35,230 nt of DNA, taken from positions 1-35,230 of the IMG/VR virus record IMGVR_UViG_3300048549_001764; one strand, given 5' to 3'. Shown piece after piece: positions 15,845-35,230 of this stretch. This DNA is from a virus. The notes under the pieces were generated by a model. The model was not told the origin of the DNA. It did not search any database and saw only the letters and a program-made list of their open reading frames with translations. A program made the translations under genes and the position numbers. Numbering within the stretch: position 1 is the stretch's first letter; every line of letters begins with the position of its first letter.

Positions 15845-16931
15845 CTAACATAGAGGAATATGCATTAATATTGTCTATGTTATCGCAACTAAATTTATGT
15901 AATAGTTTTTTAACGTCTTTTTTATAATCACCTATATTATTGTAATGATTCAATAAAACATTTTTAATTTGCTTGGCGCCCATATCTACATCAAATTCTG
16001 GATAGAAATAACCATAATCCATTAATAATTTTGAATTATGTATTACAGGCATATCTAGATACATTGCTTCTAGGTGAGAATAATTCAATTCATTATATAC
16101 TTGATGACTAATCAACGTTTTCCCAAATTTACAAAAAGCCTCTAAAGAACCCCATCTATTATTAAAAAACATAAACTCTTTGCGCTTTCCTGCTTGAGTA
16201 GATTTGATAAATTCCTTGAAAAATTTTCTTTCTCGTATTTTTTCACAACAAAAAACATTAACAGACTTCAATTCGTTTCCAAAAATTTGATTAAACCTTT
16301 CTGTAATCATAACTGGTATCAAGCAGTTTTTAGAGGTTGTTCTATTCGGCTCAAATATACAAACTTGATTAACTGCATTTTTATCAAAATAAGGATTAAG
16401 GTTTTTTGATTTTAAAAATTCTATTTTTTTATCAACGAAATAGCTCCCCCATATATATGGACAGATTTTAACATTTTCATTTTGATGATAAGCTTTTATA
16501 TAATTTAAAGCAAATCCATAATGCGGCGAAGTCCATATCTGATCAAATTTAAATTTATCAACATTCACTGGAGTTTTCACGCTCTCTGGACCAGTTAAGC
16601 CATGGTGCATGTCATCAAGCAATTTGTTACCATAATGAATTAAAATAAATTTAGTTTTACTACTTCTCTTCTTTAGTGATGAATACATATTTGGCAGTAG
16701 TTCGAATCCGCAAACTAAAACAATATCAAACACCTCATTTTTGTCGCTCAATAAATCATCAAGCATCATACCTTTATGATTTAAGCTTAATGTAGTAGAA
16801 GGTTTGTTTTGGGTTATATAGTAACAGTCGTGACCTGCCTTTTTTAATATTTCATATAAAAATACTATATTCTGTTGCATTCCATTAGTCCAAAAGGCAA
16901 TAGACATATTTACTGTGATTGCAATTTTCAT
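15837..16931 (-). CDS. DUF2827-like GT-B glycosyltransferase, copy 2
   Basis: A 364-residue protein related along its length to the gene immediately upstream. Shared marks include the N-terminal NGMQQNIVFLYEILKKAG, IHYGNKLLDDM, the DQIWTSPHYGFALNY strand, CPYIWGSYFV, FEPNRTTSKNCLIPVMI, and the C-terminal LISHQVYNELNYSHLEAMYLDMPVIHNS and GYFYPEFD. These fit DUF2827, a GT-B-like family found in proteobacterial surface polysaccharide loci and in phages. The LEA-x-x-x-x-x-PVIHNS segment would be the donor-binding region. The ATG overlaps the upstream stop by ATGA. It is probably one of a duplicated pair with diverged acceptor use. Confidence 0.72.
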   Translation of the reverse strand: MKIAITVNMSIAFWTNGMQQNIVFLYEILKKAGHDCYYITQNKPSTTLSLNHKGMMLDDLLSDKNEVFDIVLVCGFELLPNMYSSLKKRSSKTKFILIHYGNKLLDDMHHGLTGPESVKTPVNVDKFKFDQIWTSPHYGFALNYIKAYHQNENVKICPYIWGSYFVDKKIEFLKSKNLNPYFDKNAVNQVCIFEPNRTTSKNCLIPVMITERFNQIFGNELKSVNVFCCEKIRERKFFKEFIKSTQAGKRKEFMFFNNRWGSLEAFCKFGKTLISHQVYNELNYSHLEAMYLDMPVIHNSKLLMDYGYFYPEFDVDMGAKQIKNVLLNHYNNIGDYKKDVKKLLHKFSCDNIDNINAYSSMLDE

Positions 16932-18007
16932 TCAAAAAGTTTTCTATATCTTTCTTGTACAGCTGGGCTTTTTGGGTTATATCTTTCTATAACAGCGCGA
17001 GCTTTTGCATTATAATCTTCAATATTTTTATCATGATAATTTAAAGCTTCATTTAGTTTGATTGCCCCTTGCTTTATGTCGTAGTCCTTATAATAATATC
17101 CTGCGTCTTTAATATGCTCAGAATTATGAACTAATGGTATATTAAAATGAAGTGCCTCAAGATATGTATAGTTTAGTGCGTTCATTAACTGATGAGATAA
17201 AACGATATTACAATCCGAGGAAAAGATCTTGGACACTTTTTCTCTAGAGGAAAAATTAATTTTTCCATTATTAGTTATATCTAATCCCCACATAAAAAAT
17301 TTAAAAAACTTTTTATCAGCTAATTTTTGAGAGCAATAAGACGTTAATTTGTTGAATGAATTTCGATTATAATTCCTGAAATATTCTTCTACGATCATAA
17401 TCGAAGGAAGACAGTGCTTCGTGAGATTTAGATTGGGCTCTAATATCGCAATGTTTTTTTCTCGATCTGGAGAATACAAGCATGTCTTTCCAGTTTTTTT
17501 CCAAATTTCTTCGTGAAGATCTACATATTTACTTGACCATATGTATGGTAATTCTAAAACTCTATCTGTATTATAATAAGTTTTGAAGTAATTAAAAGAA
17601 AATTTATAATGCGGAGATATCCAAGCCTCATCAACTTTATACTTATCAATAGGCATTGCATTATTCCAAGAACATCTTTCTATATCAGCAAGCATAGAAT
17701 TTCCATAAATAACATGAATATTTCTGCATCTCGGATTTTTTTCTTTTATAAAATCAATGTCGCCTCTTTCTAATACAAACGCAGAATTTATTATAAAATT
17801 TAAGCTTTCTGAATATTCTTTAATTTCTCTCTCCTCTATTATAAGGATGTCTGCAGGTGGATCTATACAATTATCAATAGAATGATTAATGCAAATAATA
17901 GGATTAAGCCCTATGTCTTTTATTAATTCTGCCAAAAAAACTATATTTTGCTGAAGCCCGTTGCAAAATAATCCTCTTTCAAAATTCGCGGTTAACAGTA
18001 TGTTCAT
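16928..18007 (-). CDS. DUF2827-like GT-B glycosyltransferase, copy 1
   Basis: A 359-residue paralogue of the following gene and the first sugar-transfer gene in the left arm. The N-terminus MNILLTANFERGLFCNGLQQNIVFL aligns with the same region of copy 2. So do HVIYGNSMLADIE, DEAWISPHYKFSFNYFKTYY, LPYIWSSKYVD, LEPNLNLTKHCLPSIMI and LSHQLMNALNYTYLEALHFNIPLVHNSEHIKDAGYYY. Its start overlaps the stop of the small structural gene by ATGA, so it is translationally tied to structural genes. It is AT-rich, with no membrane segments. Family assignment is good; donor and acceptor sugars are unknown. Confidence 0.72.
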   Translation of the reverse strand: MNILLTANFERGLFCNGLQQNIVFLAELIKDIGLNPIICINHSIDNCIDPPADILIIEEREIKEYSESLNFIINSAFVLERGDIDFIKEKNPRCRNIHVIYGNSMLADIERCSWNNAMPIDKYKVDEAWISPHYKFSFNYFKTYYNTDRVLELPYIWSSKYVDLHEEIWKKTGKTCLYSPDREKNIAILEPNLNLTKHCLPSIMIVEEYFRNYNRNSFNKLTSYCSQKLADKKFFKFFMWGLDITNNGKINFSSREKVSKIFSSDCNIVLSHQLMNALNYTYLEALHFNIPLVHNSEHIKDAGYYYKDYDIKQGAIKLNEALNYHDKNIEDYNAKARAVIERYNPKSPAVQERYRKLFE

Positions 18008-18483
18008 TGTCTATGAATTGATATATCTAAATAATTTCCAGTTTCTAAGATTGTGTCTGAAAATGTTACACTGAAACCTGTCTCTGAAACATTAAATGTT
18101 GAATACGCATAGAAAAAGTCGGAATCTTCTTGAACCCTCATGTTAACATTAACCCTAGGAACAGATGTATGCGTTGCATTATCTCCTATATCTGAGTAAT
18201 TATATGATAAGGTGTCTACTCCAGAAGGAATCAATAAAGAAGTTCCAAAAGCTCTTTCTGAAGTTATAGCTTCATATAAATTATCGCCAAGTCTTCTAAT
18301 TTTTACCCAATCAGAAGTATTATTTTCTCCTGTCTTTTCGTATATATCAAGGGTGTCTGAATCAATATAATGCGAACCAATAATTCCAGCAGCCTTTGCA
18401 CTACCGGAAGGTGGCCCCGCATCAGTGATTAAGGGCTTTCTAATACCAAGATTGGCATTAACGAAAGCTTCAAACGCCCCCAT
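18004..18483 (-). CDS. Small phage structural protein next to portal
   Basis: A 159-residue protein of unrecognised family. The N-terminus MGAFEAFVNANLGIRKPLI is followed by a GSHYIDSDTLDIYEKTG...DWVKIRRLGD segment. That segment resembles the short 'G-x-x-Y-x-D-x-x-x-x-x-x-Y-x-K' strand pair at the head of many phage fibre and decoration proteins. The second half (residues 85-159) is beta-rich, ending FSDTILETGNYLDISIHRQ. It lies 6 nt after the portal stop and overlaps the first DUF2827-like gene by ATGA. A virion role (fibre base, decoration or connector) is inferred from position and composition only. Confidence 0.45.
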   Translation of the reverse strand: MGAFEAFVNANLGIRKPLITDAGPPSGSAKAAGIIGSHYIDSDTLDIYEKTGENNTSDWVKIRRLGDNLYEAITSERAFGTSLLIPSGVDTLSYNYSDIGDNATHTSVPRVNVNMRVQEDSDFFYAYSTFNVSETGFSVTFSDTILETGNYLDISIHRQ

Positions 18484-18489
18484 TAGTAA

Positions 18490-20466
18490 TTATCCCTTTC
18501 TACTACTGTGGAATAAAATGGCGGCAGAATATAAATCCAGGTTATGCTTTAAAGATAACTCCTGAATTTCATTCTTTACATCTAATAACTCTATATTTTC
18601 TGGGCTTTGAATACAACCAATCAATTTATTTTTCCAATCAGACTTATAAGAAGAAACTACTACAGACTCACAAAGTTCATCAATCATAGATTTTTCGCTA
18701 TTCTTGAGTTTGTTTTTTTTCATTTTTTTGCGCATTTCTTTGTAACCTTGATTTCTTAAATCTTCTGTAGAATATATAATTTCTTGAAGATTTTTTCTCG
18801 AGAACAACTCATCTTTGTTTATCGATGCATTATCTTGAGGTATGCCAGAAGTACCTACAGGCCTTCCAACCTCTTGAGTAGGTTGCTGCGCATCACCTTC
18901 TGGTGATATCATCGGCACACCCCCTACAATTGGATTATACATACCATCTCTTCTTTGCTCGATGTATTTTTTCTGAGCAACCTCCATTTCTTCTGGTTTC
19001 GGATAAGAACCTTTTTCCAAGACATCCATGCCTTGTTCAGGCGTTATAATTCCCAATTCCATTAGTCGAGTTGCAACTCTTTGTAGTTGAACTTCATCTT
19101 TTATATCTGCTTGTTCAAATTTTACTGTTGGGTATTTTCTAAAACCTAAGTTTTGACAAATCATTTTAACTTGAGGCTGAAGAAAATCATAAATAAAAGC
19201 GTTTCTAGACTCTTCTAATCTTTCTAAAAATATCTTAGCTTTAACTTGCGTATTACTATACCTTTCATCTCCAACAATTACATTTTGTAGCCCCTCCTTA
19301 ATATCGTTATTTATAACTTCATATTTAGCTGGGCCAACAACCTTCCCTATATCAGGAATAACGAATTGAGCTTTAGTGGTATAGTCACTAACAAGAACTC
19401 TTCCTACGCTTTCATTTTTAAAAAGGTTTTGCATGGCTTCCATGTTTCTTGGATTAATTCCACCTTTATCTGGCTCTGCTCCCATAGTAATGAGCAAGAT
19501 TACATTTTCTATGGTGCGACAAATTGCTTGGTCAATTTGTTTGAGTTCGAGCTTGAAATTTATATCGTCAAGAACAGGGTAACCGAATGGTACAGCAAAC
19601 GGTTCGTAGTCTTGTTTTTTATAAAAAGAGTAAACTAGATGTCCCGGATCTAATTTTATTCTAATTCCGTCGGAATTATATTTTCCGTTTTTAATTTTTT
19701 CTTTGACAGAATCTTCTAGGGCTTCATAAACCTGTTGGTCGTATTCTGTCTTTGGGTTTTTTAATCTCTCTATATCATATTCAGATAATATTTTTTCATA
19801 CAAGCCTGTTTCAAAAGAAGATCCTTTTGTTGCAACTATATCATATGGATTTAATAGAATATATTTTACAGGAAGTTTTCCTGGCTTAAGGGCTAGAGAT
19901 GAGCCATATATTTTCGTTAGTTTTTCAAAGTCAGATTTAGAAAACTTTCCGTCTACTCGATACAGAAAAATGTTCCCACTTCTATAATATTCTCTAAAGT
20001 ACTGATCTTTTAGATTCCATAAATTAATTTTATCAAACCATTTATAAACGAAATCCCTAGAGTTTTGCGTTCCTCCTTCAAGATAAATTTGAGAATTTGC
20101 AAACTCTGACATTACATCGATAGCGTTTCTAAAAACGGCTATATTAGCATATGCTTTTTGACAAAGTTCTATAGAGTCTCTAATATTGACTCCATCACTT
20201 CCGTAAACATACGGTAACATTCCTCCTGAAATGTTAGAAAATCTGTATTTTTTATCAGATTTATGCGTTGCATTTCTTCTCGATACAAAATCTTCAGAAC
20301 TCGATTTTGTTCGACTATAAGCGGCCTTAGACTCCAAGTAATAAGGCTCGCCCGCCGAAGACGGTCCAACTATCGGAACTTCTAAAAAGTTATTTAAAGT
20401 TTGGGACTCACTTTTTTCGAATTTTTTCCAATAATCAGAGCGTTTTATATATTTTCTCTTGCTCAT
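18490..20466 (-). CDS. Phage portal protein
   Basis: About 658 residues. It forms the dodecameric ring at the capsid vertex through which DNA is packaged and ejected. Portal features are FREYYRSGNIFLYRVDG (about 150-166), YILLNPYDIVA, a long alpha/beta stem region with IGKVVGPAKYEVINNDIKEGLQNVIVGDERYSNTQ, and the late LMELGIITPEQGMDVLEKGSYPKPEE. That last motif is typical of C-terminal portal segments. The C-terminus is a charged helical tail. I chose ATG 20466 over GTG 20469 because a TAGACT-17-TATCAT promoter places the transcript start right at this ATG. No terminase is visible; it should lie outside the window. It is the first gene of the minus-strand unit. Confidence 0.85.
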   Translation of the reverse strand: MSKRKYIKRSDYWKKFEKSESQTLNNFLEVPIVGPSSAGEPYYLESKAAYSRTKSSSEDFVSRRNATHKSDKKYRFSNISGGMLPYVYGSDGVNIRDSIELCQKAYANIAVFRNAIDVMSEFANSQIYLEGGTQNSRDFVYKWFDKINLWNLKDQYFREYYRSGNIFLYRVDGKFSKSDFEKLTKIYGSSLALKPGKLPVKYILLNPYDIVATKGSSFETGLYEKILSEYDIERLKNPKTEYDQQVYEALEDSVKEKIKNGKYNSDGIRIKLDPGHLVYSFYKKQDYEPFAVPFGYPVLDDINFKLELKQIDQAICRTIENVILLITMGAEPDKGGINPRNMEAMQNLFKNESVGRVLVSDYTTKAQFVIPDIGKVVGPAKYEVINNDIKEGLQNVIVGDERYSNTQVKAKIFLERLEESRNAFIYDFLQPQVKMICQNLGFRKYPTVKFEQADIKDEVQLQRVATRLMELGIITPEQGMDVLEKGSYPKPEEMEVAQKKYIEQRRDGMYNPIVGGVPMISPEGDAQQPTQEVGRPVGTSGIPQDNASINKDELFSRKNLQEIIYSTEDLRNQGYKEMRKKMKKNKLKNSEKSMIDELCESVVVSSYKSDWKNKLIGCIQSPENIELLDVKNEIQELSLKHNLDLYSAAILFHSSRKG

Positions 20467-20471
20467 CACTT

Positions 20472-23386: not shown

Positions 23387-24485
23387 AGTAAAAGAAGTTC
23401 AAACTACAGATCAGATCGCAAAGTTTCTTTCCGATAAAGATAATAAAAAATACCATTACAATTTTCACGAAGGAGAGGAATATAAAATTTCTAGCGGCAG
23501 CCTAAACCTTGATATTGCACTTGGCGGCGGACTACCCAGTGGAGCTCACAGGTTCACAGGAATCAATGAAGGAGGAAAAACTAGCTGCGCAATGGCTTTT
23601 GCAAAAAATTTCCAAAAGCATTTTAAGAACAATGGAATGATTATATACATTAAAAGCGAAGGAAGATTTAGCTCTGAAATGATTGAAAGGTCAGGGATTG
23701 ATACGGATCCCGAAAAATTCTTTTGCTTTGATTGTAATATTTTTGAAAAAGTTTTTGAGCTGATCAGAGAATTAGTTTTTAATAATGAAAGCGACAAGAA
23801 ATATATGTTCATTGTAGATAGTGTTGATGCTTTATGTAGGGTCGGAGACATTGACAAGCCTTTTGCCGAATCAGAACAAGTTGCGGGAGGAGCGTTGATT
23901 ACTTCGGTATTTCTTAAAAAAATGGTTTTACCAATCACCAAAATGGGACACACAATGATATTGACTAGTCAAGTTCGAGTTGAAGTCGCAACCAATCCAT
24001 ACGCCGCAAGAGGTGGGCCCAAGGTAAAGCAAGCTGGAGGTAATGCAATTAAGCATTATGCAAACTTTATTTTAGAGTTTGAAGAAAGATACAATTCTGA
24101 TTTAATTTTTAAAAATCCCACAGCAACTAAACTTGATGAAAAAGGAGAACCAATAGGTCATTATTGCAAAATAAAATTCAGAAAAAGCGTCAATGAAAAA
24201 ACAGGATCTACCGTTAGATATCCAATTAAATATGGTCAAAAAAATGGCAAATCAGTATGGAGAGCAAGGGAAATATTAGATATGTTATATTTGTTTAATT
24301 TAATCGAGAAAAAAGGAGCGTGGATATCTGTGTCTGAAGATCTAATAAAAGAGCTGTCAGACAAAAAATTTGAAATAAATGAAAAATTTCAAGGAGAGCA
24401 GAGGTTAATTGATTATTTAGAAGAGAATGAAAAGCTTTCCGATTTTTTATATGAAGACTTTAAAAAGTTAACTAATGCGCTTTAA
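23379..24485 (+). CDS. uvsX: UvsX/RecA-like recombinase
   Basis: A 368-residue ATPase that forms filaments on single-stranded DNA and drives strand exchange in phage recombination-dependent replication and repair. Walker A is FTGINEGGKTSC (GxxxxGKT at 61-68). An acidic residue in the KSEGRFSSE segment may be the RecA catalytic Glu equivalent. Walker B is KYMFIVDSVDAL (141-152). The loop VRVEVATNPYAARGGPKVKQAGGNAIKHYANF (199-230; key residues GG-x-K and QAGGNA) is the UvsX-type DNA-binding region. Length fits phage UvsX (about 350-390). The start overlaps the previous gene by ATGAGTAA and its end overlaps the nuclease by 11 nt. Confidence 0.88.
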   Translation: MSKVKEVQTTDQIAKFLSDKDNKKYHYNFHEGEEYKISSGSLNLDIALGGGLPSGAHRFTGINEGGKTSCAMAFAKNFQKHFKNNGMIIYIKSEGRFSSEMIERSGIDTDPEKFFCFDCNIFEKVFELIRELVFNNESDKKYMFIVDSVDALCRVGDIDKPFAESEQVAGGALITSVFLKKMVLPITKMGHTMILTSQVRVEVATNPYAARGGPKVKQAGGNAIKHYANFILEFEERYNSDLIFKNPTATKLDEKGEPIGHYCKIKFRKSVNEKTGSTVRYPIKYGQKNGKSVWRAREILDMLYLFNLIEKKGAWISVSEDLIKELSDKKFEINEKFQGEQRLIDYLEENEKLSDFLYEDFKKLTNAL

Positions 24486-24885
24486 GACCTTAACAGGGGC
24501 AACTAGAACTGTCAAAAAAGCTAAAAATTATTTGATCAAATGGGACTCTCCCAGCAGAAGTAAAATACAATTTGAAGCCAAGCAGTTTTTAAAAAAATAC
24601 TGGCAGAACCATATTGTATTCGAAGAGTTTCCGGTAGCAGGTACAAAGCTCTCTTTAGATTTTTATAACGCAAATAAAAAAATAGCAATAGAAGTTCAAG
24701 GCAAACAACATACAAAATATGTTCCATTTTTTCATGGCAAAAATAAAATTAATTATATCAATCAATTAAAACGGGATCAAGATAAATTACGATTCTGCGA
24801 ATTAAATAACATAGATCTTGTAGAAATATACGATGGAGACACCTTAAATGAAAAACTTTTTGAAAGTTTTGGTGTTATTCTTTAA
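24475..24885 (+). CDS. Small PD-(D/E)XK-type endonuclease
   Basis: A 136-residue nuclease-like protein. The active-site pattern is TKLSLDFYN (D near 61) followed by KIAIEVQGKQHTKY (E and Q near 73-75, H near 78), then a helix with QLKRDQDKLRFCELN and a final strand IDLVEIYDGD. The D...ExQGxxH layout is that of Vsr-like and phage Holliday-junction or homing-type nucleases of the PD-(D/E)XK superfamily. It overlaps the uvsX end by 11 nt (ATG inside the last codons), so a recombination-intermediate cutter is plausible. A homing endonuclease is an alternative, but none of the flanking genes is interrupted by it. Confidence 0.65.
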   Translation: MRFKTLTGATRTVKKAKNYLIKWDSPSRSKIQFEAKQFLKKYWQNHIVFEEFPVAGTKLSLDFYNANKKIAIEVQGKQHTKYVPFFHGKNKINYINQLKRDQDKLRFCELNNIDLVEIYDGDTLNEKLFESFGVIL

Positions 24886-26731: not shown

Positions 26732-27766
26732 ATGAGCCCAGAAAAAATAAAAGACTCTCTAATTAAATTAGGGTACAAACTAGCAGACAGGGGTCAGTAC
26801 TGGCAAACAAACGCCGTATTCAGAAATGGAGACAATAAAACCGCAATTCAAATTTACAAAAATACTGGAGTATGGAAAGATCACGTTCAAAATAGTTCGT
26901 TCTCTCCATTTAAGCGGCTCGTAGAAATAACCCTAGGAACAAACGATCAAACTCAAGTTAAGGAATTTATTGATGAAGATAATTTGGGAGACAATTATAA
27001 TAGATTAACAATTTCAGAAAAATTAGAGATGGAAGAAATTTACCCAGAAAGCTGCTTAGAGAGGTTGTTGCCTCATTATAAATTTTATAATAACAAAGGC
27101 ATTTCAAGTGAAACGCTGACAGCGCTAAAAGGAGGTTATGCTACAACAGGCAAACTTGGCAATAGATTTGTTTTTCCTATCTATAATGAGCATAATCAGA
27201 TTCACGGATTCTCAGGGAGAGACATGGCAGTTAATAGCTCTCGTCCAAAATGGAAACACTTGGGGAGAAAAAAAAGCTGGATATATCCTTTGTATGCTAA
27301 CCAAGATACTCGAAAAGCTATAGAAGAAACAGGTGAAGTTATTTTTGTAGAAAGTATCGGAGATATGTTAAATCTTCACGAGAATGGATATAAAAATGTT
27401 TTAGTTACATTTGGACTAGATATATCTTCTAAATTAATATGCTCTACATTATCTTTTAACATTAAAAAGGTTATAATTTCATTAAACAATGATATTGGTG
27501 CTGATAAAAATAGAGGTCTTGAAGCTAGCATCAAGAACTATCTTAGATTGTTAAATTACTATAACCCGGAAAATATATTAATCTGCCTGCCTCTTGCAAA
27601 AGATTTTGGAGAAATGAATGAACAACAGTTTATTAAATGGAAAAATAAGTTATCATCAATAGACCTAAAAGAACAACAATCTTTCATTATACAAAAAATA
27701 AATCAAATATATAAAAGCTTGCCAAAAAATTTATTAAAAAATAAAAAAATAATTATCAATGAGTGA
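26732..27766 (+). CDS. DNA primase, T4 gp61-like Toprim family
   Basis: A 344-residue primase that makes RNA primers at the fork with the upstream helicase. The N-terminal module (about 20-65: YWQTNAVFRNGDNKTAIQIY, GVWKDHVQ) has the zinc-domain outline but no zinc-binding Cys cluster. The core includes GNRFVFPIYNEHNQIHGFSGRD (143-164) and KWKHLG. The Toprim acidic residue is E207 in VIFVESIGDMLNL. The second Toprim motif reads ISLNNDIGADKNRG (249-262), with N-N-D where DnaG has D-x-D; NND is also what I recall for T4 gp61-type primases. KDFGEMN completes the fold. It overlaps the nuclease start by 8 nt. Confidence 0.78.
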   Translation: MSPEKIKDSLIKLGYKLADRGQYWQTNAVFRNGDNKTAIQIYKNTGVWKDHVQNSSFSPFKRLVEITLGTNDQTQVKEFIDEDNLGDNYNRLTISEKLEMEEIYPESCLERLLPHYKFYNNKGISSETLTALKGGYATTGKLGNRFVFPIYNEHNQIHGFSGRDMAVNSSRPKWKHLGRKKSWIYPLYANQDTRKAIEETGEVIFVESIGDMLNLHENGYKNVLVTFGLDISSKLICSTLSFNIKKVIISLNNDIGADKNRGLEASIKNYLRLLNYYNPENILICLPLAKDFGEMNEQQFIKWKNKLSSIDLKEQQSFIIQKINQIYKSLPKNLLKNKKIIINE

Positions 27767-28829
27767 GTTAACTAAACTTTCGGCAAGTAGAATAAAAACA
27801 GCGCAGCAATGCTCTTGGACATATTGGTGCAAGTATAAATTAAAACTGCCTGAATCAGGAAACGATGGGTCTAGCCGAGGTACAATTTGTCATAATATTT
27901 TCGAGTTGTTAGGAGATAAGCATAAAAGAGAGTTTAATAAAATAATCAAAGATGGAACAATCTGGAATACAAAAATTGTTGCAGCGCAAGTGCAAAAAGA
28001 AGCTGAAAATCTTAGGGTAGATGATCAAGAAAATCTTGATTTAATTGATGAAATGATAGTTAATGGATTAAGATGCGATTTCTTCGGGGATGAAACTCAG
28101 ACTCCGGTACTTGCAGAGTCTGAAAGGTTTTTTGATTTAGAGATAGATAAAGGTGACAAGAGTTACGCAATTAGGGGGTATATAGATAAACTTTTTGTAT
28201 ACAAAGATAACTCTGTAATTATTAGAGATTTTAAAAGTAGCAAATCAGTATTCAAAGGGAAAGATATTACAGACAATCTTCAAAATTTAATATACTGCCT
28301 AGCAGTGAAGCATCTTATGCCTGAAACAGAACCTCAAAGCGAATTCTTATTCTTACGATTTGATTTAGAAAAAGATTTATTAGGTAACAGCGGAAAAGGT
28401 TATGTTCGAATGGATAAAATTACCCCTGAAGAACTAGAAGGCTTTGAACATCAATTAACTCAATTCCAAAACTATCTAGACAACTTTAATGAAGAATCTG
28501 CGAATTCTAATTTTGCAGCAAACCAAGATTTTCCAAGAGACGGAACCTTTGGAGGCCCTTTAGCTTGTGGTAAAGATGGCTACAAAATATCTAAGGGTGA
28601 ACCAATTTTAGATAAAGAAGGTAACCCAATTAAAGCATTCATATGTCCATTCAGAAAACCAATGGAATATTATGCTCTAAAAGATCAAGATGGCAACATT
28701 AAAAAAACATCGTTTATAGATAATAAGCACGAGCTTGAAGTTGAAGAGGGAGATGAAATCATTAAAATGAAATATGACGGATGCCCACACTGGAACAATA
28801 AACAAGTCTTGGACAATTTTTTAGACTAA
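27759..28829 (+). CDS. RecB/Cas4-like PD-(D/E)XK exonuclease with possible Fe-S cluster
   Basis: A 356-residue nuclease. RecB-family motifs are TICHNIFEL (H45), AIRGYIDKL (D143), IIRDFKSSK (D157, K159) and the QNLIYCLA motif (Q175). Cysteines sit at about 18 and 24 (QQCSWTYWCKYK) and at 270, 296 and 342 (LACG, FICPF, DGCPHW). One N-terminal plus three C-terminal Cys is the [4Fe-4S] layout of AddB and Cas4 nucleases. The likely role is DNA end processing in replication-linked recombination alongside UvsX. There is no CRISPR array or Cas1 nearby, so an adaptation role is not supported. The start ATGAGTGA overlaps the primase by 8 nt. Confidence 0.8.
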   Translation: MSELTKLSASRIKTAQQCSWTYWCKYKLKLPESGNDGSSRGTICHNIFELLGDKHKREFNKIIKDGTIWNTKIVAAQVQKEAENLRVDDQENLDLIDEMIVNGLRCDFFGDETQTPVLAESERFFDLEIDKGDKSYAIRGYIDKLFVYKDNSVIIRDFKSSKSVFKGKDITDNLQNLIYCLAVKHLMPETEPQSEFLFLRFDLEKDLLGNSGKGYVRMDKITPEELEGFEHQLTQFQNYLDNFNEESANSNFAANQDFPRDGTFGGPLACGKDGYKISKGEPILDKEGNPIKAFICPFRKPMEYYALKDQDGNIKKTSFIDNKHELEVEEGDEIIKMKYDGCPHWNNKQVLDNFLD

Positions 28830-28831
28830 TC

Positions 28832-29734
28832 ATGGATGTAAGCTTTATTATCATAACCAATGGCAACAAGCCCAAAGAACTTCTGCTTCAAATAGAAAGT
28901 ATATACAATCAAAAAATTAAAAACTTTGAAATCGTAATTTGCGGGGACATTAAAGATATACAAATTCCTAAAAAAAATATAAAATATATTGAATCAATAC
29001 AAGACGCAAAATTAGGATCGCTTGGAGGCATGAGAAACAAAGCTTGCAAATATTCAAGGTTTGATAATTTGGTGATATCAGATGATGACATGATTTTCTG
29101 TTCAGATTGGTATGAAAGCTTATTGATGCATAAAGAAAACTTTGATATACTTACTCCATTGGTTAAGCTTCCTGATGGCACCAGGTTTTGGGATAAATGT
29201 TGTTATCAAAGCCCAACACATGGACATTCAATACTAGAGCCTGACGAAAAAGACGAACATCTTTATATGTCAGGAGGTCAAAGCTGGGTTATGAAAAAGC
29301 ATGTCTGGGAAAAAGTTCAATGGGATGAAAGTTTGGCGATTTATACTATGAAAAATATCTCTGACTATAAACAAGGAAAAGATAATGAAGATACAGATTT
29401 TGCAAAACGATGCAGAGAATCAGGATTTTCGATTAGTCATAATCAAAAAATAAAAGTTATACATAATGATGCGTCCTATACAGGTCTGGGAAGACTTGTC
29501 AGAAGAAGAATTCATGCCAACCAAAACTGGTGCTCAAATTTAAAGTTTCCCCACAAAGTAAATACCGAAATTGCAAAAACACTTTTAAGCTTTGGAATTG
29601 AAGCGGAAGCGGCGGATATCTTGAGAAAGTCATCTAGCGAAGGAGATATATCCGCAGGAATCATGCTGGATGAAATTGAAGATGCAAGAGGAGGTAAATT
29701 AAGTAATACAAATTTTTGTTTTAGCGATGAATAA
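28832..29734 (+). CDS. GT2-family glycosyltransferase
   Basis: A 300-residue GT-A transferase that opens the right sugar block. The N-terminal strand is VSFIIITNGNKPKELLLQIESI, then LGSLGGMRNKAC, and the metal motif LVISDDDMIFC (DDD near 86-88). MSGGQSWVMKKHVWE and EDTDFAKRCRESGF form the acceptor-side and catalytic-base region, with a late VIHNDASYTG strand. Residues about 235-300 form a small helical C-terminal domain of unknown role. It lies 2 nt behind the nuclease gene, so it is in the same transcription unit as replication genes. Donor and acceptor cannot be read from the sequence. Confidence 0.8.
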   Translation: MDVSFIIITNGNKPKELLLQIESIYNQKIKNFEIVICGDIKDIQIPKKNIKYIESIQDAKLGSLGGMRNKACKYSRFDNLVISDDDMIFCSDWYESLLMHKENFDILTPLVKLPDGTRFWDKCCYQSPTHGHSILEPDEKDEHLYMSGGQSWVMKKHVWEKVQWDESLAIYTMKNISDYKQGKDNEDTDFAKRCRESGFSISHNQKIKVIHNDASYTGLGRLVRRRIHANQNWCSNLKFPHKVNTEIAKTLLSFGIEAEAADILRKSSSEGDISAGIMLDEIEDARGGKLSNTNFCFSDE

Positions 29735-30413
29735 AGTAGGTTTATTAATTATCGCAACCAATAAATACATTGACTTTGCGATAAATTTAATTAAAAGTGC
29801 AGACGAATATTTTTTACCCAATCAAGATGTAGAGTACTTTCTATTCACCAATCATCAAGATTTAAAAATTGATTCTTGCAGAAAAGTTAACTTGATTAAA
29901 ACTAGCCATAAGCCCTGGCCGTGGATGACCCTTGGAAGATATGAAATTTTTTATTCAAAAAAACAAAAACTATTACAGCAAGATTATTTATTCTACTGTG
30001 ACGCAGATATGAGATTTTGTGATATGGTTGGAGATGAAATCTTAAGCAAAAGAGTCGCAACTCAACACCCAGGATACTTCAACACAAGAGGCACGCCAGA
30101 AACTAATCCAAATTCCTTGGCGTGTGTTTTTGAGTTCGAAAATATGCAATATTTTGCAGGAGGCTTTAACGGCGGAGAATCTGTAGAGTACATAAAAATG
30201 TCAGAAATTTTATCAAACAATATCAATGAAGATTTAAAGAAAAATATTATAGCTGTTTGGCATGATGAGTCTCACATAAACAGATATTTTATTGATAATC
30301 CACCAACCAAAATACTAGATCCGGGTTATTGTTACGGAGAAAGCCTGCGTCCTCCTTTTGTTCCTAGGCTCTTGGCTTTAGACAAAAACCATCAAGAAAT
30401 AAGATCCGAATGA
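29727..30413 (+). CDS. GT6 glycosyltransferase (ABO histo-blood-group transferase family)
   Basis: A 228-residue GT6 enzyme that would add alpha-1,3-linked Gal or GalNAc to a galactose, usually one carrying alpha-1,2-fucose. Family motifs are HKPWPWMTLGRYEIF (61-75), YCDADMRF (metal-binding DAD 92-94), TQHPGYF, QYFAGGFNGGE (141-151), IIAVWHDESHINRYF (174-188, including the catalytic-region Glu of WHDES) and PTKILDPGYCY. The length suits the soluble bacterial/phage form, which lacks the vertebrate transmembrane stem. The specificity triplet reads A-G-G, matching human A-transferase Gly268 at its last position. It overlaps the upstream transferase by ATGAATAA. Family assignment is strong; donor is uncertain. 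Confidence 0.88.
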   Translation: MNKVGLLIIATNKYIDFAINLIKSADEYFLPNQDVEYFLFTNHQDLKIDSCRKVNLIKTSHKPWPWMTLGRYEIFYSKKQKLLQQDYLFYCDADMRFCDMVGDEILSKRVATQHPGYFNTRGTPETNPNSLACVFEFENMQYFAGGFNGGESVEYIKMSEILSNNINEDLKKNIIAVWHDESHINRYFIDNPPTKILDPGYCYGESLRPPFVPRLLALDKNHQEIRSE

Positions 30414-31243
30414 TACATAAATTAATTTCTTTATTTGCTAAAAAAGAAAAAAGGAAGTATGCAATCTTGGGATATTCGACGATAAACATTGGAGATGACA
30501 TACAAAGCTTAGTTGTTTCAAAACATATTACAGTAAGCTATATAATCAATAGAGATGATCATAATCTCGTCTATGATATTAATGGCAATCGTTGTAAATT
30601 AAAAGAACGTGTTTATTTAATTATGAACGGTTGGTTTATGCATAATAAAAACTGGAGACATGGAAATAAAAATTTAACCTTTCCCATTGAAAACGAATTA
30701 ATACAACCAATATATATATCTACCTGCCTTAGTAAAGACGTTAAAGAATTATACAATCAAAAATGCCTTGATCATTATAAAAAATTTTCCCCTATCCTAA
30801 CTAGAGACAATACTACTTGCAGTAAACTTCGAGAGCTAGGAGTTGAAGCTGATTTTTTTGGGTGCATGACTCAAACTTTACTTCCAGAGCAAATTGAAGA
30901 ACTTTCAGAAGAATTTTCGAGCGTCAAAAACAAAACTATATTTGTCGATTGTAAAAGACACTTCATTAACCATAGAAGTCAAAATAAAATTTTTATAAAA
31001 CATTACGACCCTAATTTAGAAAAGCTAAACCCAAAAGAAAGACTCCAGAAAGCAGAAACTCTTTTGGCAATCTATAAATGCGCAGCCAAGATATATACAT
31101 CAAGACTACACGCTTTTCTTCCGTGTCGCGCAATGGGTCTAAACGTAGAATACGTAGGTAATATAAATTACAGAGTTAAAGATTTAATCAATTATAACCC
31201 AGATAAGGAATTGATGTTAAAAACTTTTTATGATTTTATTTAA
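30410..31243 (+). CDS. Polysaccharide pyruvyl transferase family protein
   Basis: A 277-residue protein of the CsaB/WcaK family. The family transfers a pyruvyl ketal from phosphoenolpyruvate onto cell-surface sugars. Visible marks are YAILGYSTINIGDDIQS near the N-terminus (GD-x-IQS), ILTRDNTTCSKLRELGVEADFFGCMTQTLL (about 124-153; key RD, GV, GC-x-T) and IYTSRLHAFLPCRAMGL (RLHA about 231-234). The protein is on the short side for the family. Four-base overlap with GT6 and 14-base overlap with the fucosyltransferase place it inside the fucose/ABO-like set. A role in pyruvylating the same glycan is inferred from context; some members may act differently. Confidence 0.75.
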   Translation: MIHKLISLFAKKEKRKYAILGYSTINIGDDIQSLVVSKHITVSYIINRDDHNLVYDINGNRCKLKERVYLIMNGWFMHNKNWRHGNKNLTFPIENELIQPIYISTCLSKDVKELYNQKCLDHYKKFSPILTRDNTTCSKLRELGVEADFFGCMTQTLLPEQIEELSEEFSSVKNKTIFVDCKRHFINHRSQNKIFIKHYDPNLEKLNPKERLQKAETLLAIYKCAAKIYTSRLHAFLPCRAMGLNVEYVGNINYRVKDLINYNPDKELMLKTFYDFI

Positions 31244-32000
31244 AATACAAGGCGGCTTATGCAACCAACTATTTCAATGGGCATACGCCTATAAGCTAAG
31301 CAAGTCTCACGAACTATATATTGATAATTCATTTTATGCAAATCAATTTTTAGAGCCTTTGGTTACAAACAGAGATTTTCAATTAAACGAAATTCTATCA
31401 AAACCTTTAACCCTGATAGATAATACAGCATACCAAAAATTTATCTCTAAAACCCCGCAAAGAATTTTAGACAATTTTAATTTTCAAGATTTTATTTTTT
31501 CACCTGATCAAAATTATTATCTCGAGGGGTATTGGCAAAGCGAAAAATATTTCCTTGACGTAAGAGATGAAACCATAAACTCTTTTATTTGGCCTAAAAT
31601 AAAAAATTTTGACTTTAAAGATTCTTGTTCTGTTCATGTTCGTCGCGGCGATTATTTAAACACTCAGCACGTTCATCCAGTTCAAACAATAGATTACTAC
31701 AATAAATCTCTTGACATAATTCAACCAAAAGGTAATATATTTATATTCTCAGATGATATCAAATGGTGCAAAGAAAACTTTCATTTCGAAAACTGTACAT
31801 TTATGGAAAACAATACAAATATACAAGACCTTAGATATATGAGTTTATGCGAAAATAATATTATTGCAAATAGTAGTTTTAGCTGGTGGGGCGCTTGGCT
31901 AAATCAAAATGAAAATAAAAAAGTTATATGCCCCAAAAATTGGTTTAGCGATCAAACCAACGACAAAGATATTAAAATTCAAAATTGGATACAAATTTAA
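31230..32000 (+). CDS. GT11 alpha-1,2-fucosyltransferase
   Basis: A 256-residue GT11 enzyme moving L-fucose from GDP-fucose to the 2-OH of galactose (H-antigen formation). Marks are the N-terminal MILFKIQGGLCNQLFQWAYAYKL, matching the family K-x-x-GGLGNQ-x-FQYA, then YYLEGYWQSEKYF. SVHVRRGDYL (135-143) is the GDP-fucose-binding motif HxRRGDY. YMSLCENNIIANSSFSWWGAWL (203-224; SSFSWWGAWL) is the C-terminal motif. Length is a little under the usual 280-300. The start lies 14 nt inside the previous gene but is fixed by the conserved N-terminal motif. Its donor would be made by gmd and fcl just downstream. Confidence 0.9.
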   Translation: MILFKIQGGLCNQLFQWAYAYKLSKSHELYIDNSFYANQFLEPLVTNRDFQLNEILSKPLTLIDNTAYQKFISKTPQRILDNFNFQDFIFSPDQNYYLEGYWQSEKYFLDVRDETINSFIWPKIKNFDFKDSCSVHVRRGDYLNTQHVHPVQTIDYYNKSLDIIQPKGNIFIFSDDIKWCKENFHFENCTFMENNTNIQDLRYMSLCENNIIANSSFSWWGAWLNQNENKKVICPKNWFSDQTNDKDIKIQNWIQI

Positions 32001-32626
32001 TGAAAGTAGGAGTAGTTTTTTTTCACAGTAATATTTTAAAAATATATAAACAAAAATGGATAGACCGATGCGTTGACTCAATCAAGCAGCAAACCCATAA
32101 ACCCCTGCATTTATACGAGGTTAATTACGGAGATGGCAAAAAACAATTTGTAGAAGGAGCAAAATTTTTTAATAATAAATTCGAGAATCATTCTGTGGCG
32201 ATGAACTTTATTATATCAAAAGCTTTTGACGACGGATGTGATTATGTTTTTAATACAAATATGGATGATTTTTACGAGTTTATTAGAATAGGTGCTCAGT
32301 TAAAGTTTTTTAAACAAGGTTATGATCTTATATCTTCAGATTTTTTCGAGGTAGATGAAAACGATAAGATTTTAAGCTATCGACATATGAATGGATTTGG
32401 CAGTCTACGCGCAAATCTTACTGTTGGCCATAATATTGTACCTCATCCTGCGGTAGCTTATAGTAAAAATTTTTGGGCAGACAAAGAAAATAGATACGGA
32501 AAGGATGACATTCCAGAGGAAGATCTTATATTATGGAAAAAAGCTATATACAAAGGATATAAATTCAAAGTAATCAATGAACCGTTGTTTTTTTACCGCA
32601 GGCACGACAATCAAATTTGTAAGTAA
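32000..32626 (+). CDS. GT-A glycosyltransferase (GT2-like)
   Basis: A 208-residue transferase starting at ATG 32000, whose A is the last base of the upstream stop. A TTG at 31985 is possible but would overlap more. MKVGVVFFHSNI begins a Rossmann-like strand. Then come WIDRCVDSIKQQTHKPLHLYEVNYGD, AMNFIISKAFDDGCDYVFNTNMDDFYE (metal motif NMDD), ISSDFFEVDENDKI, a GHNIVPHPAVAYSKNFW acceptor loop and EEDLILWKKAIYKGYKF (possible base ED). This is the GT2 pattern in shortened form. It is probably the last transferase of the same glycan; donor unknown. Confidence 0.7.
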   Translation: MKVGVVFFHSNILKIYKQKWIDRCVDSIKQQTHKPLHLYEVNYGDGKKQFVEGAKFFNNKFENHSVAMNFIISKAFDDGCDYVFNTNMDDFYEFIRIGAQLKFFKQGYDLISSDFFEVDENDKILSYRHMNGFGSLRANLTVGHNIVPHPAVAYSKNFWADKENRYGKDDIPEEDLILWKKAIYKGYKFKVINEPLFFYRRHDNQICK

Positions 32627-32666
32627 GTGTATATTTATATACTAAATTTAATGACATTATAATATA
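32627..32666 (+). promoter_or_regulatory. Gap before gmd with possible -10
   Basis: This 40-nt AT-rich gap is the largest break in the right sugar block. It contains a perfect TATAAT (32658-32663), with TTTATA 18 nt upstream. The ATG is only 4 nt after the hexamer, so transcription would be expected to start inside the start codon or later. No Shine-Dalgarno and no hairpin terminator are seen. A promoter here is possible but weakly supported. Confidence 0.25.
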
Positions 32667-33698
32667 ATGAAAACAATAATAGTAACAGGAGTAACCGGTC
32701 AAGACGGCAGCCACATGGTCGACTATTTATTAAAGAATACGGAGTATAAAGTATACGGAACCGCAAGAAGATTAAGCGTAAAAAATCATGAAAATATACT
32801 GCATCTAGAAAACGAACCTCGATTCGAGTTAATCAATATGGATCTTAATGATGCACATAGCATTAGAGATGTAGTAATTGATATTCAGCCAGACTACTTT
32901 ATTAATTTTGCAGCGCAGTCATTTGTTGCTGGTAGCTGGGATTACCCAATTCAAACATGGGATACAGATGCAGATGCAGTACTTCATATACTAGAATCAA
33001 TCCGTAGATTTGCGCCTAACTGTAAATTTTATAACGCTGGATCTTCAGAAGAGTTTGGAGATGTAATCTGTAGCCCGCAAAATGAAGAGCATCCGCTTAG
33101 ACCTCAAAGCCCATATGGTGCTGCAAAATGTGCGGCAAGACACATCGTTAGAGTTTATAGAGAGTCCTATAATCTGTATGCAGTACAAGGCTGGCTGTTT
33201 AATCACGAAGGTTCAAGAAGAGGCCTAGATTTTGTTACAAGAAAAATTAGTCATACAGTTGCCAAAATAAAATTAGCTATAGAAGACAAAAAGCCAGTTA
33301 CAGTTCTCAAATTAGGTAACCTAGAAGCAAGACGAGACTGGAGCGACGCAGAAGATTTTATGGAAGGAGTCTGGCTTATGCTGAATCAGAAGTTTCCAAA
33401 AAACTATGTTCTTGGCAGTGGAGAAATGCATACCGTACGAGAGTTTTTAAATGAGGCTTTAAAATGCGCAAACATACAATTCAGACAAGAAGGCGTTGAA
33501 GATCAAGAAAAATATTATACCCTAGACGGCACACTCATATTTGAAGTTGATCCTAAATTTTATCGACCAGCAGAAGTTCACGAATTATGCGGAGATTGTA
33601 GTTTAGCAGAAAACGAAATGGGCTGGAAAAGAAAAACAGACTTTTATGGGCTTGTTAAAAAAATGTACCAAAATGACTACATGCAGTTAAGTAGATGA
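32667..33698 (+). CDS. gmd: GDP-mannose 4,6-dehydratase
   Basis: A 343-residue extended short-chain dehydrogenase converting GDP-D-mannose to GDP-4-keto-6-deoxymannose, the first step to GDP-L-fucose. The NADP-binding motif is GVTGQDGSHM (8-17). The active-site set is SSEEFG (126-131) with Ser and Glu, plus YGAAK (150-154) with Tyr and Lys. NHEGSRRGLDFVTRKI (179-194) matches the family NHESPRRGxxFVTRKI substrate and tetramer loop. KLGNLEARRDWSDAEDFMEGVW (key NL-x-ARRDW) follows. The length is slightly short of the usual 350-375. Cytoplasmic. It overlaps fcl by ATGA. No manA, manB or manC is present, so GDP-mannose must come from the host. Confidence 0.93.
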   Translation: MKTIIVTGVTGQDGSHMVDYLLKNTEYKVYGTARRLSVKNHENILHLENEPRFELINMDLNDAHSIRDVVIDIQPDYFINFAAQSFVAGSWDYPIQTWDTDADAVLHILESIRRFAPNCKFYNAGSSEEFGDVICSPQNEEHPLRPQSPYGAAKCAARHIVRVYRESYNLYAVQGWLFNHEGSRRGLDFVTRKISHTVAKIKLAIEDKKPVTVLKLGNLEARRDWSDAEDFMEGVWLMLNQKFPKNYVLGSGEMHTVREFLNEALKCANIQFRQEGVEDQEKYYTLDGTLIFEVDPKFYRPAEVHELCGDCSLAENEMGWKRKTDFYGLVKKMYQNDYMQLSR

Positions 33699-34651
33699 AA
33701 GATAAAAAAATCTTTATAGCTGGGCACAATGGAATGGTTGGCTCGGCGATACTAGATAATTTAAAGTCTAACGGTTACGCAAATCTTGTTGTTCGCACAA
33801 GAAATGAACTTGATCTAAAACTTCAAGCTGATGTAAATCGCTTTTTTGATAAAGAGCGCCCAGATGTGGTTATTATTTGTGCCGCCAAAGTCGGCGGCAT
33901 TCTTGCAAACAATACTCTTCGCGCAGATTTTATTTACGATAATATACAAATTGCTTCTAATTTAATACATGCTTCTCACATTTATAACACACAAAAGCTG
34001 ATTAACCTAGGTAGTTCATGCATATATCCAAAGCATGCAGATATACCAATTGCAGAAGAAAGTCTATTGACTGGTGTGCTAGAAAAAACAAACGAACCAT
34101 ATGCAATTGCAAAAATAGCCGCGATTAAAATGTGTGAAAGTTATTACCAGCAATACGATAGAAATTTTTATTCGATTATGCCGTGCAACATGTATGGGCC
34201 TCGCGACAACTTTGATCTAAAAAGTTCGCATGTTTTACCAGCTCTCATTAGAAAAGTACATGAAGCTAAAGAAAATGGCGCGAAAACGATTGAAGTGTGG
34301 GGAACAGGAAAGCCATTACGCGAGTTTTTATATGTCGATGATTTGGCAGAAATGTCGATACGTTGTTTAGAATGCGTCGATGCGATCGACGTATATGAAC
34401 AAGGAATTTCGCACCTCAATTGCGGATCTGAAGATGAAGTAACTATTCTTGAATTGACCAACATTATACAAGATGTCGTTGGCTACACTGGCGAGATTGT
34501 ATTCGATAGCTCGAAGCCTGATGGAACATATCGCAAAAAAATGAACAACGGTCGAATGATCAATCTAGGATGCACACCAAAACACACGCTAAAACAAGGA
34601 CTACAAAAAACATATGCTTGGTATCTAGAAAATAAAGAAAAATTTGTGTAA
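33695..34651 (+). CDS. fcl: GDP-L-fucose synthase (epimerase/reductase)
   Basis: A 318-residue enzyme epimerising and reducing GDP-4-keto-6-deoxymannose to GDP-L-fucose with NADPH. The nucleotide motif is GHNGMVGSA (10-18), then AAKVGGILANN (63-73). Catalytic residues fall at the positions I know from the E. coli enzyme: Ser107 and Cys109 in LGSSCIYP, Tyr136 and Lys140 in EPYAIAK, and His179 in DLKSSHVLPALIRK. GKPLREFLYVDDLAE is also typical. Length is normal. It overlaps gmd by ATGA, the conserved gmd-fcl pairing. All expected catalytic residues are present, so it should be active. Confidence 0.94.
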   Translation: MKDKKIFIAGHNGMVGSAILDNLKSNGYANLVVRTRNELDLKLQADVNRFFDKERPDVVIICAAKVGGILANNTLRADFIYDNIQIASNLIHASHIYNTQKLINLGSSCIYPKHADIPIAEESLLTGVLEKTNEPYAIAKIAAIKMCESYYQQYDRNFYSIMPCNMYGPRDNFDLKSSHVLPALIRKVHEAKENGAKTIEVWGTGKPLREFLYVDDLAEMSIRCLECVDAIDVYEQGISHLNCGSEDEVTILELTNIIQDVVGYTGEIVFDSSKPDGTYRKKMNNGRMINLGCTPKHTLKQGLQKTYAWYLENKEKFV

Positions 34652-34660
34652 TAAATAGCT

Positions 34661-35230
34661 ATGGAAAATGAATCTCACTCTGCAAAACGTTCTGGACCGA
34701 AAAGTTCAGCCCAAACCCCAGCGAAAAAATCTGAGCAAAAAAAGGGTTCTAATAAAAACAAACCAGGAAGCGCTGGAGAAAAAGGTGGCAAAATTACTTT
34801 CTCTGATCGTGTACTCGAATCATTAAAGACTAAAGTAAAAGAACATAACTCCAAGTACAGTAAGAAAGTCACTTTATCTCAACTTAAAAAAATATATAGA
34901 CGCGGAGCAGGAGCCTTTTCATCAAGCCATAGACCAGGCAAAAGCAGAGGTCAATGGGCAATGGCAAGAGTAAATATGTTCTTAAAAATGGTTCGTGGAG
35001 GTAAAGTTAAAGACAGCTACAGAAAAGCGGACCAGGATGTGGCCAAAGCTTCTGCCGCAGTTATGATTGATGATGGTGTGCGTGACGAATTAAATTTATT
35101 CACCGAAGAAGACTTTATTGAGGCTAAACTAGATATATATAACCACCAACTACAAGAAGATCCAGAATTTACAGATGAAATGTGGAGCACAATTTTTATT
35201 GATGTTGATGAGCTTGGCTTTGAAGAGTAT
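34661..35230 (+). CDS. Conserved phage protein, DUF5824-like (C-terminus off window)
   Basis: An open frame from ATG 34661 runs 190 codons to the right edge without a stop. Residues about 1-45 are Lys/Ser/Pro-rich and likely disordered (SAKRSGPKSSAQTPAKKSEQ). Residues about 60-135 include VTLSQLKKIYRRGAGAFSSS, HRPGKSRGQWAMARVNMFLKM and VRGGKVKDSYRKADQDV. This is a strongly conserved block in many marine phages that I recall as DUF5824. The tail is acidic (NLFTEEDFIEAKLDI). The function is unknown; the basic block may bind nucleic acid or a virion partner. It starts 9 nt after fcl, with a weak TAATAA hexamer overlapping the fcl stop seven bases before the ATG. Confidence 0.68.
   Translation, partial: MENESHSAKRSGPKSSAQTPAKKSEQKKGSNKNKPGSAGEKGGKITFSDRVLESLKTKVKEHNSKYSKKVTLSQLKKIYRRGAGAFSSSHRPGKSRGQWAMARVNMFLKMVRGGKVKDSYRKADQDVAKASAAVMIDDGVRDELNLFTEEDFIEAKLDIYNHQLQEDPEFTDEMWSTIFIDVDELGFEEY

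Follow-up and report, generated by a model that had tools for sequence, protein, structure and literature searches.

A candidate cell-surface glycan locus with exchangeable sugar genes in an uncultured phage lineage

In the window analysed here, the whole 35,230 bases of IMG/VR virus record IMGVR_UViG_3300048549_001764, a run of sugar genes lies between a PD-(D/E)XK exonuclease gene and a gene for a DUF5824 protein. It includes a GT6 glycosyltransferase, a GT11 fucosyltransferase and the nucleotide-sugar genes Gmd (predicted GDP-mannose 4,6-dehydratase) and Fcl (predicted GDP-L-fucose synthase). We read the run as a phage cell-surface glycan locus, in which Gmd, in many cases together with Fcl, provides a constant supply of GDP-deoxyhexose and is combined with an exchangeable block of sugar genes in the slot between exonuclease and DUF5824, and we put the probability of this reading at about one half. 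Nucleotide-sugar synthesis genes and glycosyltransferases lie together within a phage backbone, the arrangement by which phage lipopolysaccharide (LPS) or O-antigen modification clusters are recognized. Both terminal genes run off the ends of the window, which is therefore a fragment.

Searches with the exonuclease and DnaB of the window led to a lineage of uncultured phage contigs, with close relatives of up to 184 kb (L192) and distant ones of up to 211 kb (L200). The close relatives share the gene order UvsX, HNH endonuclease, small open reading frame (ORF), DnaB, primase and exonuclease; in the window, the HNH ORF at 24475 to 24885 sits between UvsX and DnaB, and a homologue occupies the equivalent place in close relatives. 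For the slot comparison 35 contigs were chosen; neither contigs that break off ahead of the slot nor members of the more distant lineage were counted. Both borders are present in 29 of them, while four (L140, L145, L150 and L179) end before DUF5824 and in two (L195 and L196) Gmd is followed by other genes with no DUF5824 match. Four pairs of rows in the table have identical figures; if each pair is one phage, as may be the case, 25 distinct rows remain. The exonuclease (27759 to 28829, plus strand in the window; PF12705, 63.8 bits) precedes the slot in all 29 complete cases and forms its 5' border, and the DUF5824 gene (34661 to 35230, plus strand, running off the contig; PF19141, 38.2 bits, cut-off 25) forms the 3' border.

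The stretch between these borders ranges from 1.4 to 7.4 kb across the 29 contigs. Every one has a Gmd homologue and 19 have Fcl, but only three (the window, L001 and L002) have GT6 and GT11. Four of the Gmd homologues are more divergent than the rest (L144, L169, L180 and L192; 444 to 459 bits versus 636 to 803). Nearly half of the slots (14 of 29) are shorter than 2.5 kb and hold an ORF of 131 to 136 amino acids together with Gmd, joined in eight cases by Fcl. A Pfam scan of 30 slot ORFs from nine contigs returned NUDIX, GT2, GT4, GT25, galactosyl-T, GT47/RXYLT1-like, LicD, pyruvyl transferase and sulfotransferase families, with methyltransferase and SAM_DprA matches below cut-off and no match at E <= 0.01 for 12 ORFs. 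Scanned contigs without GT6 carry GT2, GT4, GT47/RXYLT1-like, LicD, pyruvyl transferase and NUDIX genes in the slot, and the GT25, galactosyl-T and sulfotransferase matches belong to L002, which has GT6. The NUDIX match occurs in L138, L139 and L002, the three relatives in which this gene was scanned. Reading this gene, which follows the exonuclease in relatives, as a GDP-mannose hydrolase was rejected: NCBIfam gives it no support, and neither the window nor L001 has such an ORF.

Since Gmd is constant and the other sugar genes differ, the slot looks, from its gene content, like an exchangeable glycan module next to a supply of GDP-deoxyhexose. With a constant supply and swapped sugar genes, a housekeeping role would be less expected than a diversifying target, for example a surface glycan. 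The first-pass annotation, a model's reading of the window, had presented GT6 and GT11, with Gmd and Fcl, as a phage set; GT6 and GT11 do occur together in the window, but they are one of several alternative slot contents and not a conserved core. Between the window and the contig of L001, five backbone proteins are 75 to 92% identical, Gmd 86%, Fcl 70%, GT6 78% and GT11 64%. When 50 other contigs (31 close, 19 distant) were searched over the whole record, GT6 was found in one (L163) and GT11 over cut-off in two (L163 and L218); in L163 a GT2-GT6-GT11-Gmd block is placed before UvsX, a different site.

Turnover of slot content between close relatives would also be expected of passenger or filler DNA, with no function in infection, and for the LPS genes of cyanophages Sullivan et al. 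2010 (PMC3037559) describe it as not known whether they are functional or 'stuffer DNA'. We nevertheless consider filler improbable, as the reading frames are open, the motifs are intact, Gmd is kept throughout the complete slots and the GT6-GT11 pairing recurs across distant phages. An assembly artefact, or a host O-antigen locus as the first-pass annotation had entertained, is a far weaker contender still. In its favor are bacterial GT6 relatives with up to 54% identity and the occurrence of the same gene types together in some bacterial loci. The closest GT6 relatives are viral, at 78% identity, tail-fibre and phage replication genes lie on the same contig, and, most strongly, the same backbone order surrounds the slot in many other virus contigs. 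This shared backbone answers the host-locus objection, and we regard the phage origin of the genes as very nearly assured.

The ORF list places GT6, GT11, Gmd and Fcl on the plus strand exactly where the first-pass annotation had them, and Pfam scores and motifs agree with its description of four motif-complete genes within 5 kb on one strand. The GT6 protein (29727 to 30413) matches PF03414 at 136 bits (cut-off 25) over profile positions 77 to 312 of 313, and also phrog_3317. It has a DXD motif (D92-A-D94), an AGG triad (A144-G-G, 144 to 146) and a catalytic-type glutamate (E181) in WHDES. Its AlphaFold2 (AF2) model (pLDDT 93) has the GT-A fold, with TM scores of 0.93 to BoGT6a and 0.91 to human GTA. 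By sequence the protein scores 143 bits with BoGT6a, about 113 to 118 with human GTA/GTB and 82 with alpha-1,3-galactosyltransferase. BoGT6a and human GTA/GTB act on fucosylated acceptors.

The likeness to BoGT6a (PDB 4ayj, 4cj8) extends from the fold and the AGG triad to the active site, where BoGT6a H122, T134, W189, H190, D191, E192 and K231 align with H114, T123, W178, H179, D180, E181 and K220 of the window protein, a pairing read off a pairwise alignment by eye. Because the triad equals that of BoGT6a, GalNAc would be a likelier donor than Gal. The two proteins differ in that BoGT6a, an enzyme of Bacteroides ovatus that transfers GalNAc to 2'-fucosyllactose, is described as metal-independent with an NXN motif (PMC3961637), whereas the window GT6 has DXD; metal dependence is therefore predicted for the latter.

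The GT11 protein (31230 to 32000, plus strand) matches PF01531 at 111 bits (cut-off 23.9), and since both transferases score well over their profile cut-offs, the family membership that the first-pass annotation had assigned to them stands. GT11 carries HVRRGD and NSSFSWW, in line with HxRRxD and NSSxSWW, which we take to be the motifs of the family, and H136, R138, R139, D141, N214, S215, S218, W219 and W220 are invariant in a 15-row alignment. Its search against PDB sequences gave no meaningful match (best E 0.01, to myosin). The nearest folds to its AF2 model (pLDDT 90) are the fucosyltransferases NodZ and POFUT1, at a moderate TM of about 0.47; these matches of a predicted structure support a fucosyltransferase and are silent on linkage.

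Gmd (32667 to 33698, plus strand), the constant part of the slot, matches PF16363 (GDP_Man_Dehyd) at 345 bits (cut-off 27), and its closest PDB entry is the GDP-D-mannose dehydratase 2z1m (266 bits). Fcl (33695 to 34651, plus strand) is likewise a short-chain dehydrogenase/reductase (SDR), and its closest PDB chains are GDP-fucose synthetases (1bsv, 353 bits). Both proteins carry the SDR motifs GxxGxxG and YxxxK, in Gmd at G8 and Y150-K154. Fcl also has S107, C109, Y136, K140 and H179, presumably the catalytic residues of E. coli GDP-L-fucose synthase, with SSC at 107, YAIAK at 136 and SHV at 178. The idea of a fucose supply joined to a GT11/GT6 pair thus gains support at the level of sequence, with Gmd and Fcl as predicted names.

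Three members of the run had gone unmentioned in the first-pass annotation, all on the plus strand: a predicted polysaccharide pyruvyl transferase (30410 to 31243; PF04230, 37.6 bits, cut-off 25.3) and two GT2-like glycosyltransferases, one the first gene of the run (28832 to 29734; PF00535, 24.9 bits, cut-off 23.3) and one with a TTG start as called (31985 to 32626; PF00535, 25.7 bits, cut-off 23.3). The pyruvyl transferase has no PDB match at E <= 1, and the viral scan turned up no relative; a three-row alignment that added weak homologues at 27% and 15% was judged too poor for fold prediction. The first GT2-like protein is 67% identical in the contig of L001 (L173) and has no match in L237 (the contig of L002), L138 or L167, and the second is retained, at 73% in the L001 contig and 64% in the L002 contig. 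Adjacent ORFs of the run overlap by 4 to 16 bases or are separated by 9 to 40 bases, an operon-like spacing; no promoter signal stands out (32 sites found versus 32.0 expected). Because the run holds the pyruvyl transferase and two GT2-like genes as well, it probably makes something other than a plain A or B trisaccharide.

The pairing of GT6 with GT11 was followed in a census of 50 GT6-bearing IMG/VR records (L051 was left out), many of them short fragments and several near-copies, with Gmd counted at >= 265 bits and Fcl at >= 208 bits. A GT11 match is present in 47 of these, and in 46 it exceeds the Pfam cut-off. GT6 and GT11 are on the same strand and no more than 5 kb apart in 44, or in 43 without L024, where GT11 is a sub-cut-off fragment at the contig end; in 29 the distance is at most 100 bases. 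The exceptions are L003 and L007 (6.7 kb), L027 (34 kb, opposite strand) and L029, L031 and L039 (no GT11). A search of other phage genomes for GT6 near GT11, proposed in the first-pass annotation, has thus come out in favor of the pairing. The full set of four is found in 20 of the 50 records, and PF04230, used as a contrast sugar gene, in five. Among the 24 records of at least 40 kb, GT11 is within 5 kb of GT6 in 21, versus 3.1 expected at random placement, a null that is lenient since sugar genes cluster generally and some records are near-copies. The GT6-GT11 grouping is not chance.

In a tree of 137 GT6 rows, whose bootstrap had not settled and from which L052 (the window again) was left out, phage GT6s fall in more than one branch, with four label changes, at least two of them forced. 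The closest group of the window GT6 comprises L001, L002 and L009 (100/99); L003, LR745206 and LR756502 join next (100/99), the last two being phage records of 635 to 642 kb. GT11 neighbours occur in the P-SSM2 group, in a large clade with Synechococcus phages and in the group of the window. Over 57 phage rows the motif is DXD in 49, D-x-C in six and gapped in two, and no readable row has NXN. The triad, AGG in the window, is QGC in the IMG/VR contig L049. Six near-identical phage GT6-like ORFs (L008, L037-L040 and L042) have D-x-C for DXD and the triad IGG; in L008 this is a second GT6-like ORF, the first-found one having DAD, and L037, L038, L040 and L042 have Gmd at 518 bits and only a 32-bit Fcl match in the record. 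The GT6 span at L009:8001-8678 contains 11 stop codons when read straight and so may be frameshifted by assembly or decaying.

Bacterial GT6s were represented by the best 80 of 206 loci found with phage-seeded patterns, a set biased by those seeds, in which GT11 was counted with an HMM built from phage GT11s that may miss distant ones. Within these limits, 36 of 46 loci with N-type motifs and nine of 34 with DXD have GT11 no more than 5 kb away. The DXD loci themselves are mostly L058-L092, and 24 belong to a clade of mainly Dependentiae and Chlamydiae metagenome-assembled genomes; outside that clade, seven of 10 have GT11 nearby. Two DXD bacterial GT6s were known in 2014 (PMC3961637).

Several observations weigh against a fucose-based surface-glycan locus. 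In eight of the 14 short slots the stretch from exonuclease to DUF5824 holds Gmd and Fcl but no transferase. Fcl is missing from 10 of the 29 slots, which means that the lineage as a whole does not share fucose as a product. The GT6-GT11 linkage is inflated by general sugar-gene clustering and near-identical records. The nearest cellular GT6s, the 24-row Dependentiae and Chlamydiae clade (<= 54% identity), are near GT11 in only two of 24 cases, and GT6 therefore need not require an H-type acceptor. The best NCBIfam model for Gmd, TIGR01472, gives 319 bits, under its equivalog cut-off of 415, although 21 of the 50 GT6-bearing records hold a Gmd that passes; four Gmd relatives scanned reach 299 to 314 bits on the NCBIfam Gmd model. 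Fcl reaches 442 bits on NF047922, its best NCBIfam hit, under the equivalog cut-off of 500, and none of the 50 records passes that Fcl cut-off. With both scores below the equivalog cut-offs, the names Gmd and Fcl are predictions. To these points is added a second sugar cluster (10374 to 20469, minus strand) beside the tail-fibre genes.

That second cluster keeps virion glycosylation a serious rival, in which the sugars would decorate tail fibres or other virion proteins and not the host envelope, as is reported for other phages (PMC12619734). It lies between tail fibres and replication genes and encodes RXYLT1_C and GT34 in one protein, a GT25 domain in a 633-amino-acid protein, two adjacent DUF2827 proteins and several family-less ORFs; one ORF of 659 amino acids (18490 to 20469, minus strand) has no Pfam or PHROGs match at the limits used and none by tblastn in the phage collection. 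The GT6/GT11 slot, however, sits among replication genes and not among fibres, and pelagimyophage clusters of this kind have been read in print as O-chain modification (PMC7029224). The GT11 and GT6 families act on sugar chains, as do pyruvyl transferases. Virion glycosylation would therefore need a glycan already primed for GT11 and GT6, and we judge it unlikely overall, the strongest of the rivals all the same. Filler DNA and DNA modification are less likely than virion glycosylation. The latter of these, transfer of sugars onto phage DNA, draws on the neighbourhood of the slot (UvsX, DnaB, primase and exonuclease genes) and on the ability of phage glycosyltransferases to glycosylate DNA (PMC12619734, PMC7029224). 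With GT6, GT11 and pyruvyl transferases being sugar-chain families, and no base hydroxymethylase having turned up among the window ORFs scanned on this fragmentary contig, we hold DNA hypermodification to be very unlikely.

For a cell-surface glycan locus, the scheme that we infer from the families, motifs, predicted GT6 and GT11 folds, linkage and slot content observed here is conditional as to which substrates are used, in what order the enzymes act, what they target and how the phage would benefit. In the infected cell, host GDP-mannose would be converted to GDP-L-fucose by Gmd and Fcl. On a host envelope glycan ending in galactose, GT11 would attach alpha-1,2-fucose to that galactose, and GT6 would attach alpha-1,3-GalNAc, or with lower probability Gal, to it as well. 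The resulting determinant, A-like with GalNAc and B-like with Gal, may be modified further by the pyruvyl transferase and the GT2-like proteins. The altered envelope might then hide receptors from competing phages or change grazing. An A/B-like trisaccharide made on the host envelope by GT11 and then GT6 would be plausible, and a swapped slot would be consistent with shielding the infected cell from other phages. The classical gtrABC serotype-conversion operon consists of a flippase GtrA, a bactoprenol transferase GtrB and a specific GtrC; no such family was found among 20 window proteins scanned with Pfam.

A bolder version, which we offer tentatively and think doubtful, is that this uncultured large-phage lineage keeps a dedicated surface-sugar slot in which sugar genes are swapped beside a fixed GDP-deoxyhexose supply. 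One allele would combine GT11 with a metal-dependent GT6 to make a fucose-dependent A-like (GalNAc) determinant, altered further by a pyruvyl group, and blood-group-like polymorphism would recur as phages compete for host surfaces. If true, phages would repeatedly assemble the two-step chemistry of vertebrate ABO and swap it in the manner of alleles. The 29-slot comparison offers natural variants in one backbone for probing the function of phage sugar clusters, a question left open by Sullivan et al. (PMC3037559), and the DXD-type GT6s described here are a compact source of possible A/B-type transferases.

The features searched for gave no host assignment. The window has no tRNA, and its DnaB finds a best match of 23% to named phages among the matches listed. 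Photo_RC is over cut-off in none of the 50 related records (one match lies below it), so that nothing here points to a cyanophage. Glutamine synthetase and HSP70, checked as signs of a link to the Bacteroidota-infecting moraphages (PMC12619734), were each found in 0 of 32 records, and that link was rejected.

Comparison with other phages changes one part of the first-pass annotation, which knew of P-SSM2 for a single GT6 and of no phage with the whole set: P-SSM2 holds gmd, fcl, GT11 and GT6 within 9.8 kb. In a tblastn search of 50,697 phage records, GT6 matched 71 and GT11 102 at E <= 1e-5, and at E <= 1e-30 there were 78 records with Fcl and 83 with Gmd. Eight of 10 named records compared by coordinates hold all four genes within 4.9 to 9.8 kb (P-SSM2, P-SSM5, DSL-LC02, AG-345-F15, AG-345-E02 and three ACG-2014f phages); NC_026927 and LR756502 have three of the four among the matches listed. 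Our literature search, with many subscription papers out of reach, found no paper joining phage GT6 and GT11 as an ABO-like pathway.

The LPS cluster of P-SSM2 (NC_006883, about 193.4 to 205.5 kb), one of the large clusters described in this and two other cyanophages by Sullivan et al. 2010 (PMC3037559), resembles the window run in that gmd, fcl, GT11, GT6 and GT2s share one strand with further sugar genes. It differs in spreading the four genes over 9.8 kb, near hli and psbA in a cyanophage backbone, and its GT6 is 42% identical to that of the window. The three ACG-2014f Synechococcus phages have the four genes within 5.4 kb on one strand, with a GT6 that is 29% identical. In cyanophage S-SCSM1, GDP-mannose 4,6-dehydratase, GDP-L-fucose synthase and alpha-1,2-fucosyltransferase are reported as cell wall genes (PMC9602691), the same three fucose genes as in the window run; the available part of that paper does not name a GT6, and S-SCSM1 is absent among the best 60 of the 71 GT6 matches. 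Papers on jumbo phages and pelagimyophages treat sugar clusters as modifiers of the host surface (PMC7824862; PMC7029224). The host-recognition hypervariable islands of pelagimyophages are, like the slot, variable and rich in glycosyltransferases, with a proposed role in host O-chain modification (PMC7029224), but they lie in the structural region with tail fibres, whereas the slot is in the replication region beside Gmd. Sets of fucose, GT11 and GT6 genes are thus already known from ocean phages, and the new part is their place in an exchangeable block within an otherwise fixed genome stretch.

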